Source: Mucor racemosus
Taxonomy: Eukaryota; Mucoromycota; Mucoromycetes; Mucorales; Mucoraceae
Assembly: GCA_027405735.1 (NCBI GenBank)
Contig: JAPEHQ010000001.1
Coordinates: 6,510,001-6,574,000 of the forward strand
Length of the DNA stretch: 64,000 nucleotides
Direction: 5' to 3'
The notes under the pieces are model-generated. The model was not told where the DNA came from and did no database searches. It saw only the letters and a list, made by a program, of their open reading frames with translations. The stretch's first letter is position 1. Each line of letters starts with the position of its first letter. Of this stretch, positions 56,450 to 63,703 are shown piece after piece. The position numbers and the translations under genes were made by a program.

Positions 56450-57223
56450 AGTATAATTAAAACGAAAGAAACGTAAAATAATAGTGGCTTATGTATTGCG
56501 GCACAGCAAGTTGATAATCAGCATTTTATGCAAGGATAATACAACTAATCAGGTATGTTTTACACTGTGCTACACTTTGATATGGTATTCTACTCTTTCT
56601 GTGCCTTTTACATCTATCTATTTGCTTTTTATATCATAAATTCATCTCAGTCTAATGTGAAAAAAGCTAACCACAAGGTGAAATGGCCGTTATAATCATA
56701 ATAGATCTGGCTACAGTACTTTTCTACATACAAAAAAACATTATCGGGTTCTATTGTACCATAATTGTTTACAATTTAAAAATCAAAAGTTATAAAGCTA
56801 GATTTTGTGTGAAAATTCTTGAAACATGGGTAATTCATTATAAAATAGCCTAGTTTTAATCAAAGCTGGGATCTACGCAAATTTGGCGTAAAATGTTTGT
56901 TCCCAGGTCAATGTAGATTTGATTCGATTTAAGTTTGGAGACGACGGAAGCTATCCTCATGTGAGGTTATTATGTAGTTGTAGAAGTGATTACATTTATG
57001 TAGCATTCAATGCTGAACCTTGTTTCTCATTCATAAGAAATATTCATAAAACAAGTTACATGTTATAAATTGATCGAATCAAAGAATCTTTACGTATTCT
57101 TGATAAATTATGAGGCACTTTTTAATTCAAAAATGATACTGAATATCTAAAGTTTCTGGATGTTTATGAAAACTTTCATTGTCAAATCCAGGTATGGGAG
57201 TGCTACCAGCCCCAAAATGTTAA
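56450..57223. other. Intergenic between saf4 and the Fanzor element
   Basis: Holds the saf4 promoter. No gene or RNA was recognised. The sequence ends with CCCCAAAATGTTAA next to the TA target of the Fanzor element. Confidence 0.4.
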
Positions 57224-57608
57224 TACAGTATTTCCACTTGAAATTCAGACATTTCAGGAAAATATTTAGATGATTTCCAATTGAATTTTGAACGATTGTA
57301 GTTATATATTGAGACAGAGTAAAAATGAAGTCTAGACAAAACGAGAATGCAAATTCATAAAAATTGTGAGTTATTTTTTATTAGACTTATGTAATTGAGC
57401 GACTGAAAGTTTTTATTAAAATTAAGCTAAGATTTGACCTGTTCAATGTTATATTGCAACTGCAAAATTGAATTATTATTATATATTTTAGAACAGATAA
57501 AGAAAAGAAAATTACGAATGTGAAATTTGGCTTTATATGTTAAACTTATTTGTTATTGTTATGCTATTTTTTGTTATCTTGTTTTCATTTCATCACAAAC
57601 CTCAAATA

Positions 57609-57736
57609 CAGACTTTACACTTGAAATTTAGACGTTTTTATTATTTTTTTGAACGAAACAGAAATAAAATTTAGACAAAATAGAGACAAAAATTTGTATG
57701 AAATGAGAATGAGATTTTAGATAAAGTCAGTGTCAA
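57609..57736 (+). repeat. Second, inner left terminal repeat of the Fanzor element
   Basis: Preceded by TA, it begins CAGACTTTACACTTGAAATT and continues through AAATAAAATTTAGACAAAAT and TATGAAATGAG to TTTAGATAAAGTCAG. It pairs in inverted orientation with 60790-60916 more completely than the outer left end does beyond its first 25 bp. The element thus has two left-end-like sequences 383 bp apart. Confidence 0.75.
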
Positions 57737-58107
57737 TTCACACTAAAATGAATTTGATTTGAGATAAATAATATGTAGATTCAATCAAGCAATGTATTTC
57801 TGGATTATCATCATCTTCTTCTTTATTTAAACTCCGACCATTGGTGATGTTAAAAGTTGCAACAGATGGAAACAAATGCTAGCAATTACATAAAACCAGT
57901 ACATAGTTGTAAGGTGCTTATCATATATTGACTGCTTGGATACCCGTTAAATACCGATTGATGTATGAAAACCTCATATTGTACATTGCCTCCACACGTA
58001 AAGGCAGCTTTTTATCCTCCCTTTTTTTTTACTTATTTTCTACATCCCATCATCTGCAACAATCGATAATGTACAGATCCTTAATTTTGAATAAAATTCA
58101 AGCGGTA

Positions 58108-60660
58108 ATGACAAGCAGAGAGTCAGGTATAAACTATAAAATCTTTGAAAGGTAGTTTATTTTTTACAATCATTATTGACTTAGGGGAGAGACCGCAGCC
58201 AACATGCAAAGATTGCAAAGAAATTGGCCACTACAACAAGAAGTACTACAAATGTAGGCTGTATAAAGAAGAAAAAGCAGATGATGGTGGGTACAACATA
58301 AAGTAAATTATAGATTTTCTAATACTTTTGATAGTTGGCACAAGTAGGAAGCGACAAAATTCAGCGATCAAGAATGTCAAAAGAGAAGCAAAACGCCAAA
58401 AAATGGTAGCAGATCCCAGTGTCCGTTGTACTAATTGTAAAGGTATTGGTCATAAATCATCACGCTCTCCAGATTGTCCCAGGCATATACCATCTAAACT
58501 TGAAGTAATGAATCAAAACTTGGGAACTGGATTCCAATCATTTACTAGAAAACTTCCTTTTGATGCTTGTGTAAAAGAACGTTACAGAAGTGTACTCAAA
58601 AATAGAATTCTCTCTGCAAGTGAGGATGTTCGTCAATTGCTCTTCAGAGCACAAATTTTTGTAAACTATTATATTATTCTTCATTCAAATGAAAATATGC
58701 CAGGCTGCATTTATCGACAGCCTTTCTGGTATTCCATCTGCCAGTTGGTTAACAACAAGCGTGTTACAAATTCCAACGTGATTCCACCTGGTATGCTTGA
58801 TGACTGGAACAACTTTAGAATACAACATCCAACTATTTTGTACAAAGTCAACTTGGCTAGTGGTAACAGCCAATGCTTATCGGAGGCATGTCTTCAGGTG
58901 TCCATTACTTATTTGAATGCTATAGTCGAGACTTTTGAACAGAGAGTAATGTCTTATTTATATTATTTGATCCAAAATATTTGCATGGTAAGCACAAATA
59001 TAAATTTTACTTACATTATAAAACCTCATACTTTTGAATCGTAGGTAATGAAGCCTGATCAAGTGAAGCTCATTGTGAAAGAATATTGCTACCAATATGT
59101 TTGTAGAGGTGAACCTAAATGGCCCACTGGTGTTGCTCTGTCAGATGATTTGAAATTAAAAATTAGAAACGAATGTGATCCGTTACGTGATCATACAACT
59201 GAATCCGTATCATTGAAAAGTCTCTCTGCATCCCCAGGCAATTATATTCGCTGTTTCTCATATATACTTTCAGCCTATGAAGAAGAACATAGAAATCATT
59301 CTCCTTTTGATGTAAGACGGCTTCCGCTACCCAGGTTGTTTAGCATTTCACCAAAACCATCATGTCGGTGTAGATTTGTCAATATTAGTGTAAATGCATT
59401 ATCTTGTTTTGTAAAAGAGTCTCTTCCAAGAGGTTATGAAAATCAACTCCAAATGTTTCATCGTATATTTGATTTCACTAAATTACGATTCAAAGAGTAA
59501 GTTTGTTTAAAATATCTTTATAAAAGCCAACTAACATTATCTTGACAAACCATAGCATATCTCAATTAAGAGCAGACGGTGAAAACACAGTCTTGTTCAA
59601 TAATCTCGTTAGATCTGATGGATTTGCAGTTGATTTTGTATTTAACAGAAAGAAACAAGAGTCAATCATTGGTAATCATGATTTGACATTAGAAGATTTC
59701 ACATATGAAGAAGTGGAAAATGTTTACAGGCCTGCTTTTATCGATCCTGGACGAAAAGCTGTATTTACTGCTGCAGTTGGCTTGGGAGATGATCATCAAG
59801 TACGGCGGTGTAGTACTAAAGAATACTATGATTTGACCGGCTCCACCAAATACTCCATAAAAATTCAAAAGCTTAAAGATGAAAGGGGTATAACCCCGAT
59901 TGAAACGGATATGCCTACCACAAAAACTTGCCAAGCTACGGCTTATCTTACTTATACAGCCTATATGTTGCTTCATAGACAGACTTTGTTTGATTTTTAT
60001 GGTTTTCAAAGAGCCAAAGACAGATTCTTTCTTTACCAAGGTCGTCAAAAGGCTCCACAAATTATGGTGAATATGCTGGTCAATGGTAGCAAAAAATATG
60101 ACAGAAAACAAAGAAATAAACGTAAAAAGAAAAGAAAAAGAAGGTTCATGAAAAAACAAAATGCAAATAAGAAGAAAAGAAAGCACACTACCGCCATTTC
60201 CAAGTAAGTTAACAAATTAGCATTCACGCATCACATCAGCTAATGCATTTCATGATGTAGGCATAAATGGAAACCATCAAAATTCCAACAAGATAAAGCC
60301 AAGGTTCCTTTAATTGTTTTTGGTGCAGGAATGTTTGGTAAAGACTTGGTAAAACTAAAAGGTAACAAATGTGGAGTAACTGGCGTTCTCTGGCGTGCTT
60401 TAAAGAAACGAGAAAAAGAAGGAGATCTTTTGGCTGTTACAATTGATGAATTCATGACTTCAAGGATTTGTAATATATGCTATGAAGACTCATTGAAAAA
60501 GGTGGACGGTGTCAAAGGTCATAGTGTTCTTGGATGTCAAAACTGTAAAACACTGTGGCAGAGAGACATCAATGCTGCCAAAAATATGCTTCTTATCTCA
60601 TCATTAATATGGAGTGGTTATGGTCGTCCGGAGGTGTTTTCTCCTAAGGCAAGATCCTGA
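58108..60660 (+). CDS. Fanzor: eukaryotic TnpB-like RNA-guided nuclease
   Basis: Six exons, 58108-58126, 58185-58286, 58335-58987, 59045-59496, 59556-60203 and 60261-60660, give 757 residues with no stop or frameshift. Two zinc knuckles of spacing CX2CX4HX7C lie at residues 14-30 and 72-88, separated by a basic stretch. The C-terminal RuvC nuclease has all expected sites: Asp472 in FIDPGRK, Glu688 in VTIDEFMTSRIC and Asp727 in WQRDINAAKNM. The zinc ribbon is Cys695, Cys698, Cys717 and Cys720. A strongly basic segment (RKQRNKRKKKRKRRF, ~residue 595-620) should act as nuclear localisation or RNA-binding region. Proteins of this family cut DNA guided by an RNA encoded near the gene. The first exon and start are inferred from an ideal splice pair; an upstream in-frame start at 57928 is possible. 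Confidence 0.9.
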
Positions 60661-60916
60661 TCATAAAGTTTATTTAATTTGTATCGCCGTAATAAACACG
60701 GTTTTTTCCTTTGGGAGATTTAGATCATTACAGGTAAGTTATAAATATTATTACTGTTCAACTGAAGACTAATTTCATTTTTTCCAAATCTCCTTTCTCA
60801 CTTTATCTAAATTTTATTTTCATTTCATCCAAATTTTATCCTCACTATATCCCAATTTTATTCTTATTTCATCCAAAATTTTACTTATTTCATCTGAATT
60901 TGAAGTAGAAATACTG
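60661..60916 (+). other. Candidate guide-RNA (fRNA) region and right end
   Basis: 256 bp from the Fanzor stop to the right terminus. It contains a GTTTTTTCC stretch and then an array of T/C-rich near-repeats (ATTTCATCCAAATTTTAT type, four to five times between 60820 and 60895) that form the inverted subterminal sequence. In TnpB systems the guide RNA overlaps the gene's 3' end and element end. By analogy this stretch is the place to look, but nothing in the sequence alone proves an RNA. Confidence 0.35.
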
Positions 60917-60918
60917 TA

Positions 60919-61303
60919 GCATGTAATAAGCTGGTCAACACCGCTATGCCGTAGGTCTGTTTTACTTCATTATAAAAAGCTTTTCATCGTACTGTACCAA
61001 TAGTTAGAATAATATTTAATGATAATGCAAAGAAAAGTTACTGAACAATTATATCACTCTTTTTGTATATTCTTGTTCTCCTCTTCTTTCATTCTATTGC
61101 CCTCCTCCTCCTCTTCCTTCTTCTCTTTGGTCGTTCTTCTTCATCCTCTTTGTTTGGGTGTGTTATCCTTTTTTATTTAAATTATTGTATTTATTTAATT
61201 TTGATTGTGAAATACGACCATATGATTTTAAAAATAAAATGATAGAAGTTTAAGAATGTAATGGTTTATTTCAATGGATAAGAAGACTATATAAAAAATG
61301 CAC
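60919..61303. other. Intergenic, Fanzor element to TMA7
   Basis: Contains a C/T-rich tract at 61076-61152 on the plus strand (TCTTCTTCATCCTC type). No gene is visible. Confidence 0.45.
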
Positions 61304-61679
61304 TTATTTCTTGCCAGATTTCTTGATACCACCACTGACTATAAATAAACATTAGAACAAAAAATCCCATTACAGATTAAACCAGATTAAAAAACTTACG
61401 CAAAGGACCCTTTCCAGATGCCTTTTGTTGCATTTCTTTCAACTTCTTGGCCTCTTCCATCTTCTTCTTCTTGAAGGCAAGATCCTCCTATTTAATTTTT
61501 TAAAAAAAAAGGCGTTCAGTTTTCTTATCAAAACACAACGAAATGTCCTTACCTCATCTTCAAAGTTCTCGGACTTCTTGGGCTTCTTGAGAGGCTTAAG
61601 TTTGCCACCTTTTATTCATACATTAGATATTTGTATATTTAATGCATATATTAATGGATTTACCTTGTCTACCAGACAT
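61304..61679 (-). CDS. TMA7: Translation machinery-associated protein 7
   Basis: Four exons, 61679-61664 (16 nt), 61608-61553, 61487-61400 and 61338-61304 (35 nt), 64 residues, the exact length of yeast Tma7. The sequence is highly Lys-rich and opens MSGRQGGKLKPLKKPKK, with acidic EDEEDLAFKKKK and the Gly/Lys-rich end SGGIKKSGKK, all family hallmarks. Tma7 associates with ribosomes; its exact role is unclear. The three introns in a 65-codon gene make it easy to overlook. Confidence 0.95.
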
Positions 61680-63703
61680 TTTTAAAGAAATTAGTGCAAA
61701 GTATAAATGAGGCTTTTTACCATTGCATCTTTGCTTTATATAAAAAAAAACTTTTTCGTCGTGGTCATTAATCTTCCGATTTAGTGCGTCACTTAATTAA
61801 TATTGATTGATTTGGGAAAAAGATTTATTTATGATATTGCCATCATTATAAAGTAGTTGAACAAAGTATCGAAAAGATTGTTTGACGTTTAATCAAGTCA
61901 AAAAAGGCATTTATGGATGTCAAAAGTATAGTTGAACTAGTGCATATCGCAACTTGCTCTCCGAAAAAAGCCTTTATATCTCATAGTCAATGCCCAAAGA
62001 ATTATAAAGAACCAAGCTTGAATTGAATTCAAGCATGTGATACATCAATTCTCGCCAAAAAAAAAGCAATATACAATGATATGAATTGGCTTTTTACCTA
62101 TCAAATTTACAAAATTTAGCTCAAATAAGCTATTCCAGTTCTCATTTTTGGATTCAAACCGGCTGAGAATCTCATCATAACGTATATTGTTATTAACGCT
62201 ATCCATTACTGTAGCCGTATTGTACATTTGTTATACTTTGTTGTCGTTTTTATGATGATATTATGAGTTATTGATTTGCTTGAATATGCGAGCAATTGAA
62301 AAAAAGCACTCAAGATCATATGTTTGTCAAATTTACCATTCATTTTCAGCTATATATGCAAAATAAAAATACTACTTATATCTTAATGTGCTAAAGTTTG
62401 CGATCATATCTTTTTATTACGACTAATATAGCTGTAACGACTATAGTAACTCTTTGAAAATGTAATTCTCTAATATCAAAAAAAGGCGGTGTTTCAATTA
62501 CAAGTTGGACCCTCGAATCGATTTTCGATCATTTGGACATCAAAATATCATGTTTGTCTTTTACTGCAAAATTTTAATATTTAAAGCCAAACACATTCAA
62601 TAATCTTCCTGATAGATATTTGTGCGCTCTATAGATTGGTAAACATTTTGGGACGATAACATAAATATTCGTTGCTGTAGTTTCATAAAACCTAAAAACA
62701 GTTTTTCTCGTAAAACATCAAATTTTGAATAGCAAATGTAGAAATAAATAATTTCATATGAAAAATCGAGCTTTTCTCGTCATTTTGTATTAATGCATAT
62801 CATAGTGAATTTTGACGTTTTTCGGGTTAAAAGTGCAATATTCCTATTTCATGGACCAATCCCCTATAGTTGTAGGCAAAAAATCATTCAAAATCATCGA
62901 TTTTTCATCGTTCCAAAAATATCTTCCAAATTGTCTAAAACTGATATATCATGTTATTAACAAATGTAGAAGATGATTCCACATGTTTTTCAACCGAGAA
63001 AAGACCAAAAACTGCTAATTTTATTGCTTGTTTTAAAACCGATATATCCAAATAATGGCCACTTTTCGGTATATAAAGACACTCTATTATCCACAATTTT
63101 CGCAAAAAAAAAAATGCTATCGCTATAAAAGCGTAGCAATCTATCTTTTGTAAAGTTTTAAAGTCGATCGAATCGCATAGAAATAGTATAACAATTCTTG
63201 AGAACCGTTGAAACTTTGAAAGTGTTCATATAATCAGATGATATCTGCTTACAATAAATTCAACATGTACAAGGATTCAAAGAAATATTGATATTTGTAT
63301 TGACTATATTATAGCGACTTGTTTTGCTTCAAAATTTTCGAGTCCCTTATTTAATTTGATGATATAATCTACCATGAAAGATGGCATGACGATTGCTCTT
63401 TTAGGTCAGATGTCCACGTTTATAATATAAGTTATTTACATATCTCCTCATTATTTAAGCTAAATATAGCATATCTTTAGCTACTCTTTACTTAGATTTC
63501 TTTGTCTTTTATTATGCGTTGGCCAATTGATCATATGTGTCGTCCTTGATCTCAAAAAGCAAGGCTGTATTCTGCCCCAGTCACCTTACAGTGACTCGCG
63601 CAAGTCTTTATCGGGTGCGATTAATTCATGTTGAACACAACATTCTACCACAAGTTTTTAATTTAATTCTTTTCTTTTACTCTTTAAGTTTTTCAAGGTA
63701 AAT
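61680..63703. other. 2-kb intergenic region, no gene seen
   Basis: AT-rich; 62500-63400 has the look of the dispersed non-coding repeats elsewhere (many ATCGATTTT and TCGTTCC-like words), but no second copy exists in the window. Towards the right end, CCCCAGTCACCTTACAGTGACTC near 63577 contains a short inverted pair (GTCAC/GTGAC) close to the promoter of the last gene. Confidence 0.4.

Follow-up and report, generated by a model that had tools for sequence, protein, structure and literature searches.

A Fanzor gene in a TA-flanked element of Mucor racemosus: young copies, signs of past selection and a predicted AATA target motif

INTRODUCTION

TA-target transposons that carry a Fanzor gene without a transposase are an already known kind of element, with SPu-1 and PUl-4 as examples. 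In SPu-1 of Spizellomyces punctatus, inverted repeats and putative TA duplications enclose the Fanzor1 gene (SpuFz1) and no other, and the cited descriptions list several intact copies and report no transposase (PMC3627910, PMC10432273). Many 'ghost' copies without the reading frame keep the right-end region (PMC10432273). PUl-4 and the other Fanzor1 mariner elements of Bao and Jurka (2013) likewise have TA duplications and mariner-type ends and, in that account, no transposase (PMC3627910). The biological role of Fanzor cleavage was stated as unknown in the 2023 Nature paper (PMC10432273). Here we analyzed an element of the same build from Mucor racemosus, located at 57226-60916 of a 64,000-nucleotide (nt) stretch of contig JAPEHQ010000001.1 (positions 6,510,001 to 6,574,000, G000:C1:6510001-6574000), which we call the window. 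The genome comprises 53.2 Mb in 54 contigs, and contig labels such as C1 and C19 are used below to name copies of the element.

The features listed for SPu-1 and PUl-4 recur in the Mucor element. Compared to SpuFz1, which is described as a single 633-amino-acid frame, the Mucor protein is spread over six exons and is 757-770 amino acids long, and the ends of the two elements differ. CATA is the motif measured for SpuFz1, whereas AATA is predicted for the Mucor element (PMC10432273). Two N-terminal CCHC-like groups were noted in the Mucor protein. The ends of PUl-4 are identical to those of confirmed mariner members, whereas no such partner was seen for the Mucor element (PMC3627910). In CMe-1A/TE-N2_CMe, a Fanzor1 element of Cyanidioschyzon merolae, the 5′ part is another transposable element, as appears to be the case here; CMe-1A has no inverted repeats, whereas the captured left end of the Mucor element is a TA-flanked inverted repeat (PMC3627910). 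Three Fanzor1 families, PBl-1 to PBl-3, are described from Phycomyces blakesleeanus, and PBl-3 is MuDR-like with 9-bp duplications, unlike the TA-flanked Mucor element (PMC3627910).

What the Mucor element adds to this known kind are young copies, evidence of selection, an oriented motif, a composite structure and a revised start. In this genome, intact and broken Fanzor copies stand beside derivatives with shared junctions, which serve as a neutral control, and the insertions show an oriented motif. Taken as a whole, this indicates that selection acted on the protein during the time when the element was moving, and it yields a specific prediction, AATA, for the target motif.

RESULTS AND DISCUSSION

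A Fanzor gene between TA-flanked inverted repeats

The left end at 57226, CAGTATTTCCACTTGAAATTCAGA, and the reverse-strand sequence of the right end at 60916, CAGTATTTCTACTTCAAATTCAGA, share 22 of their 24 bases and are each flanked by TA, which reproduced the TA-flanked inverted ends reported in the first-pass annotation of the window. When the genome was searched with the pattern TACAGTATTTCNACTTNAAATTCAGA, allowing up to 3 mismatches, 118 matches were obtained against 0 for the reversed control, and the ends are therefore not a chance resemblance. The end analyses below used the 100 of these 118 matches that were listed. Both a TA duplication and inverted repeats were found, as in Tc1/mariner-type elements, and empty sites back the TA for one relative. 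The annotated class, a TA-target inverted-repeat element without a transposase, was likewise supported by the ends, the TA flanks and the gene content. The ends and exons are as follows.

57224..57225, no strand: left target-site duplication TA, within the flank GTTAATA (read in the sequence)
57226..57249, plus strand: left terminal inverted repeat, L1 type (end comparison and genome pattern search)
58069..58126, plus strand: likely coding start (ATG 58069) through exon 1, with the previously annotated ATG at 58108 (copy comparison)
58185..58286, plus strand: exon 2 (gene model, as for exons 3 to 6)
58335..58987, plus strand: exon 3
59045..59496, plus strand: exon 4
59556..60203, plus strand: exon 5, with RuvC-I and the basic stretch
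60261..60660, plus strand: exon 6, with RuvC-II, the zinc ribbon/TNB, RuvC-III and the stop
60893..60916, minus strand: right terminal inverted repeat (end comparison and genome pattern search)
60917..60918, no strand: right target-site duplication TA (read in the sequence)

The six-exon, 757-amino-acid frame was recovered, and variants of 755 and 754 amino acids differed from it solely at intron 2. The introns are 48-59 nt long with GT-AG borders, which all four young copies described below keep at all five introns.

By every sequence test that was run, the protein is a Fanzor. Pfam TNB (PF07282) scored 31.3 bits with the whole protein (cut-off 26.3) and 36.2 bits with exon 6 alone, whereas the NCBIfam TnpB models gave weak C-terminal matches far below their own cut-offs; the Fanzor/TnpB profile search that had been proposed as a check was positive for the former and below threshold for the latter. 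The Fanzor signature of Bao and Jurka, D-X(125,275)-[TS][TS]-XX-C4 zinc finger-RD (PMC3627910), was matched by a regular expression starting at Asp 416 and ending at 727, and D472, with 215 residues to E688, also fits its spacing. A second published fingerprint, which combines DPG in RuvC-I with an alternative Glu placed six residues ahead of the zinc finger (PMC10711439), was found as DPG 472, E688 and C695 (DPG-to-Glu spacing allowed up to 260). A motif search recovered the RuvC residues D472, E688 and D727 and the complete zinc ribbon as claimed. The best match in a PDB sequence search was SpuFz1, with a whole-sequence E of 1.4e-4 and no single stretch significant alone; together with the TNB score and the fingerprint, this supported the annotated identity. 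Fanzor1 is distinguished from Fanzor2 by a larger protein and a non-IS607 transposon, and the Mucor protein, with 757-770 amino acids in a TA-flanked inverted-repeat element, is most likely a Fanzor1. Membership in Fanzor predicts an OMEGA-type RNA-guided RuvC nuclease. The fungal protein PpFz1 of Parasitella parasitica was not among the PDB matches at E up to 10. Parasitella parasitica is a mucoralean fungus. PpFz1 is described as a Fanzor1 with a solved structure, the motif ATN and an FRI insertion of roughly 100 amino acids (PMC11423790), and the motif predicted for the Mucor element is AATA. The features within the protein are as follows.

58205..58255, plus strand: first CCHC-like group, C-X2-C-X4-H-X7-C, residues 14-30, no Pfam match (by eye)
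58427..58477, plus strand: second CCHC-like group, C-X2-C-X4-H-X7-C, residues 72-88 (by eye, sub-threshold Pfam)
59743..59745, plus strand: RuvC-I catalytic Asp472, in IDPG (motif search)
60091..60186, plus strand: Lys/Arg-rich basic stretch between RuvC-I and RuvC-II, possibly a nuclear localisation signal (read in the sequence)
60448..60450, plus strand: Glu688, alternative catalytic residue of RuvC-II, six positions ahead of the zinc ribbon (motif search)
60469..60546, plus strand: C4 zinc ribbon C695-C720, TNB domain (Pfam, motif search)
60565..60567, plus strand: RuvC-III catalytic Asp727, in the conserved RD (motif search)

The final spacing of both CCHC-like groups, which the first-pass annotation did not mention, is longer than in the usual knuckle, and a regular expression with zinc-knuckle spacings up to 6 found no match in the protein. 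The second group gave a Pfam zf-CCHC_6 score of 20.7 bits at residues 70-94, below the cut-off of 22. A literature search for 'Fanzor' with 'zinc knuckle' found no paper, which does not show that the feature is unreported. Viral contigs scanned with the Fanzor protein gave no match, and a structure prediction for exon 6 was discarded at a mean predicted local distance difference test score of 34.

Copies, derivatives and a second left end

Four full-length, near-identical copies lie at different sites: the window copy (C1), C19, C20 and C11. Both C1 and C19 have an intact frame and all splice sites, C20 has a full frame with an Arg to Ile change in the RD motif, and C11 is disrupted by a stop and a two-base insertion and reads DPE in place of DPG. 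Two decayed copies are C6 and C17, the latter at about 88% across the portion that aligned. A protein search of the same genome gave 66 matches with exons counted separately, the majority from short derivatives, which include ten type B copies with a common junction joining element positions of about 1176 and 3238 and nine type A copies joining about 1150 and 3462. The genome search for the same ends therefore did find other copies, and no transposase element sharing them was found among the places listed.

A second inverted repeat stands at about element position 384 (window 57609), which is where C17 and most derivatives start.

57226..57608, no strand: outer left segment, missing from C17 and from most deletion derivatives, which start near 57609 (copy comparison)
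57609..57632, plus strand: internal older left end, L2 type CAGACTTTACACTTGAAATTTAGA, with AAATA before it (copy comparison)

In the window copy, the outer segment matches a non-coding family, here family X, over approximately its first 150 bp, and no source was found for the remainder to 57608. C20 and C11 carry about 640 bp more outer DNA, and about their first 765 bp match family X at up to 90-92%. Judged from these alignments, the element is composite, with an older left end inside it at 57609 and an outer end from family X. The annotated boundary at 57226 stands as the current left end, with an older end of the same kind inside.

Family X is non-coding and about 1.25 kb and longer (C1:658562, C7:2363223, C9:1644638, C22:396471 and C22:403650); it shares the left end, and its 3′ module is a diverged version of that of the Fanzor element.

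Codon positions in young copies and derivatives

The type B copies share one deletion, and therefore the differences among them arose without the gene and provide a neutral control. Variable sites among seven of these derivatives were distributed as 29, 18 and 24 over codon positions 1, 2 and 3 (L057, L066 and L068 were excluded from the codon counts because their 5′ part did not align), and as 30, 24 and 23 when all ten rows were counted over the exon 6 part. Fixed differences between the window copy and the seven type B derivatives were instead distributed as 1, 0 and 12, with 12 of 13 on third positions (p = 1.7e-5). When young-copy polymorphism was removed and looser gap rules were used, the exon count was 1, 1 and 12. 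At 13 of 15 readable fixed sites, exon and non-coding, C17 has the base of the derivatives, as C6 does at 3 of 6; since C17 mostly has the derivatives' base, most of the fixed changes fall on the lineage leading to the young copies. In exon 5, the fixed differences from C17 and C6 were 11 synonymous and 3 non-synonymous. Because the fixed differences pile up on third codon positions and the control variation does not, the protein was under purifying selection before the latest burst of copies.

The idea that type B derivatives encode a selected mini-protein was rejected, as their variation is even across codon positions. We also observed that third codon positions differed between the window lineage and type B at 12 of 121 sites and non-coding positions at 9 of 815 (57610-58400 and 60467-60916; p = 1e-6). 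Synonymous change was thus faster than change in introns and flanks, for which possible reasons are escape from RNA silencing, constrained flanks or a higher mutability of the GC-richer exons.

An oriented motif at the left end

In total 127 ends were classified. Only TA-flanked ends were counted, with 11 of 61 left and 8 of 58 right ends set aside, and 8 internal ends within composite copies were counted apart. The TA-flanked ends carry an A at position -4 in 45 of 50 cases on the left and in 18 of 50 on the right (Fisher p = 2e-8). AATA stood before 14 of 18 L1 ends classed as young and 9 of the 10 L2 ends, together 23 of 28, and at none of 19 young right ends, against a background of 0.139 of the TA sites in the window.

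At C21:737839 the insertion lies in a repeat, and 12 related loci without the insertion mostly read TTTCTAATTTTAGG, with one reading TTTCTAATATTAGG. The TAA before this insertion is target DNA because it is present at related sites that lack the insertion, and the duplication is TA as judged from the one related locus with TA there. The other 15 insertion sites were searched whole, and no empty site was found for them.

SpuFz1 elements carry CA upstream of the left repeat, and the measured motif is CATA (PMC10432273). By our reckoning, CA followed by the TA duplication would read CATA in S. punctatus, equal to the SpuFz1 motif. From the left-end bias and this analogy, the target motif of the Mucor Fanzor is therefore predicted from its insertion sites to be AATA. 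Retention by an RNA-guided nuclease predicts an oriented target motif, although a transposase preference could look alike. We also considered whether the flank motif follows the type of right end and rejected this, since family-X-like right ends occur with both AATA and AYTA.

The 3′ module and the search for a transposase

By analogy with published Fanzor1s, a guide RNA would come from the 3′ module and run into the flank. The features of this region are as follows.

60683..60916, plus strand: 3′ module, from about 22 nt past the stop, common to elements without the Fanzor frame; expected guide RNA site (copy comparison)
60686..60702, plus strand: short hairpin with AATAAA in the loop, then a T run; possible poly(A) signal (bacterial terminator scan, used solely to view this hairpin)
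60773..60901, plus strand: 22-bp subterminal tandem array, about 5.9 copies, length differing among relatives (repeat analysis)
60885..60908, plus strand: weak candidate 8-bp RNA hairpin at the element end, overlapping the inverted repeat (right-end alignment)
60919..60933, plus strand: would-be guide position, about 15 nt beyond the duplication (analogy with PMC10711439 and PMC10432273)

The terminal 8-bp hairpin was paired in 206 of 224 cells (92%) over the 28 distinct rows among 43, compared to a slid maximum of 137 of 224 (61%); it is weak evidence because it was read off the window copy and overlaps an inverted repeat that is conserved independently. A consensus fold of 43 of 65 right-end rows gave a z of -0.2 at 70 nt and of -3.0 at 160 nt, where nearly all shuffles were zero. 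An Rfam scan of 57200-61000 gave one sub-threshold match and none above threshold. The 22-bp array could be a set of protein binding sites.

Six transposase elements were inspected, four with DDE_3 and two with DDE_1. Four of them have TA-flanked CAGT-type ends, all different from those of the Fanzor element; the ends of the other two, L129 and L130, were not settled. The repeat of the Fanzor element, with up to 6 substitutions, was found in 0 of the 6. Of 369 DDE_3 candidates, 150 were scored and listed, and the place closest to any of the 100 listed ends lay 9.5 kb away. Among 36 listed DDE_1 places, one copy on C7, in two pieces, lay 3.7-3.9 kb from the end at C7:114889. This copy is probably a separate transposon, because it scored the same as the copy at C1:1171523, whose ends (CAGTAGTCGCGC..., 2.5 kb) differ. 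The ends of the Fanzor element fit the Tc1/mariner style of this genome, and the element presumably depends on a transposase made elsewhere. A 7.2-kb stretch of C22 bounded by matching ends was considered as an autonomous element and rejected, as it consists of two short elements of opposite orientation around other open frames.

Possible retention by the nuclease and the alternatives

In the reading that we favor, with a probability of roughly 0.6, the element is a non-autonomous TA-target DNA transposon with Tc1/mariner-like ends and Fanzor as its only gene. A transposase made elsewhere would move it in trans, the 3′ module near the right end would be transcribed into a guide RNA reaching about 15 nt into the flank, and the Fanzor would cut beside 5′-AATA-3′, either at the empty site once it has re-formed or on the sister or homologue. 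The probability applies to the element class and these steps jointly. Repair of the cut would then copy the element back. Deletion derivatives that retain the two ends together with the 3′ module would benefit from Fanzor and transposase acting in trans, and the youngest form of the element would have captured the left end of a non-coding family, 383 bp outside the older left end. An extension to which we give little credence is that a Fanzor lineage with two N-terminal CCHC-like groups swapped its left end for that of a non-coding family and kept its right end, guide and target motif, that copies accumulate at AATA through restoration by the nuclease, and that the genomic copies would thus be a eukaryotic record of a cut-and-paste transposon being retained through RNA guidance.

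Several observations weigh against retention at AATA. No transposase with these ends was found among the places listed, and none lies inside the element. The 3′ region folded no better than shuffles (z = 0.32), the consensus energy of the right-end alignment was near zero (-0.29 to -0.48 kcal/mol), and the length of the 3′ module changes freely between copies. The contrast in the motif is weakened by the split between young and old ends, 2 mismatches over 50 bases, which was set by ourselves, and among 15 old L1 ends 3 show AATA and 10 show AYTA. Family-X-like right ends stand with AATA at C1:658562, C9:1644638, C11:1036119 and C13:1586454, and with AYTA at C23:686717, C13:877909 and C9:113374. 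The SpuFz1 analogy depends on PMC10432273, which we followed, whereas PMC11423790 swaps the motifs of SpuFz1 and GtFz1 relative to it. Finally, the oriented motif could be the transposase's own choice. As a separate observation, the AYTA preference of the old L1 ends gives the impression that the targeting partner was once a different one.

One alternative is that the Fanzor is a passenger, with the transposase alone picking an oriented (T)ANTA target and the nuclease having no role in maintenance. Copies without the Fanzor frame outnumber the full copies and share the left-flank motif, as this explanation would have it. There are also five single copies with both ends known and a right module of at most 48 nt, four of which stand at AATA and one of which, C8:453953, has lost the TA; they are not decisive against retention by the nuclease, because each truncation is known from one copy and could have arisen after the insertion. 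That the protein was under purifying selection along the lineage leading to the young copies is hard to reconcile with a pure passenger. Target choice of the Tc1/mariner type is expected to be symmetrical around TA, and the motif found here is one-sided. We consider the passenger explanation unlikely, while granting it a real chance.

It is distinctly unlikely, in our view, that the gene was recently amplified in an inactive state and owes its intact frame merely to the youth of the copies. Two of the four young copies, the frameshifted C11 and C20 with its altered RD motif, suit this explanation, and so do the synonymous and non-synonymous differences from the window copy, which numbered 6 and 4 in C19, 9 and 8 in C20, and 6 and 10 in C11. 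Recent constraint was therefore weak or absent, which also counts against retention by the nuclease. Against an inactive gene stand the third-position bias of the older fixed differences and the intact frames and splice sites of C1 and C19. The first-pass suggestion that the window copy could be active is thus backed by the codon positions, which point to past purifying selection, and is not backed by the young copies, among which constraint is weak. Domestication as a host gene is very improbable, since nothing beyond the intact frame favors it, and an element with clean ends and TA flanks, present in near-identical form at four separate sites, speaks against it.

A probable earlier start codon

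The codon at 58108 is ATG in C1, C19 and C11 and AAG in C20 and C17. In the derivatives it is AAG or AGG in 11 of 13 readable cases, with ATG in L037 and AAT in L038. The in-frame ATG at 58069 is present in 4 of 4 young copies and 10 of 13 derivatives, and the exceptions are C17, L060, L062 and L012. Because the ATG at 58069 is widely kept and that at 58108 is mostly AAG or AGG in relatives, a start at 58069 and a 770-amino-acid product (MYRSLILNKIQAV followed by the 757 amino acids) are likelier than a start at 58108. The annotated gene model was therefore retained in its six exons and its 757-amino-acid frame and revised at its start. With translation from 58069, the Met to Lys change in C20 would therefore not be a loss of the start. 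The 13 added N-terminal residues contain 2 fixed differences, both at third positions, which are too few to prove coding.

Related sequences and a neighboring gene

Divergent Fanzor remnants with a TNB zinc ribbon were seen at L145 (G000:C19:930696-930881) and L146 (G000:C19:93653-93853), with 35% and 22% identity to exon 6, respectively, and G000:C21:52652-53095 gave a 41% match to Fanzor residues 400-539. At L069 (G000:C22:396300-403800), two opposite family-X elements flank a gene that by eye is PP1-type phosphatase-like. A small gene on the minus strand of the window, at about 61310-61680, is split, contains GGKLKPLKKPKK and ends in a KASGKGP-like sequence. It appears to resemble TMA7, and the Fanzor element lies downstream of it.

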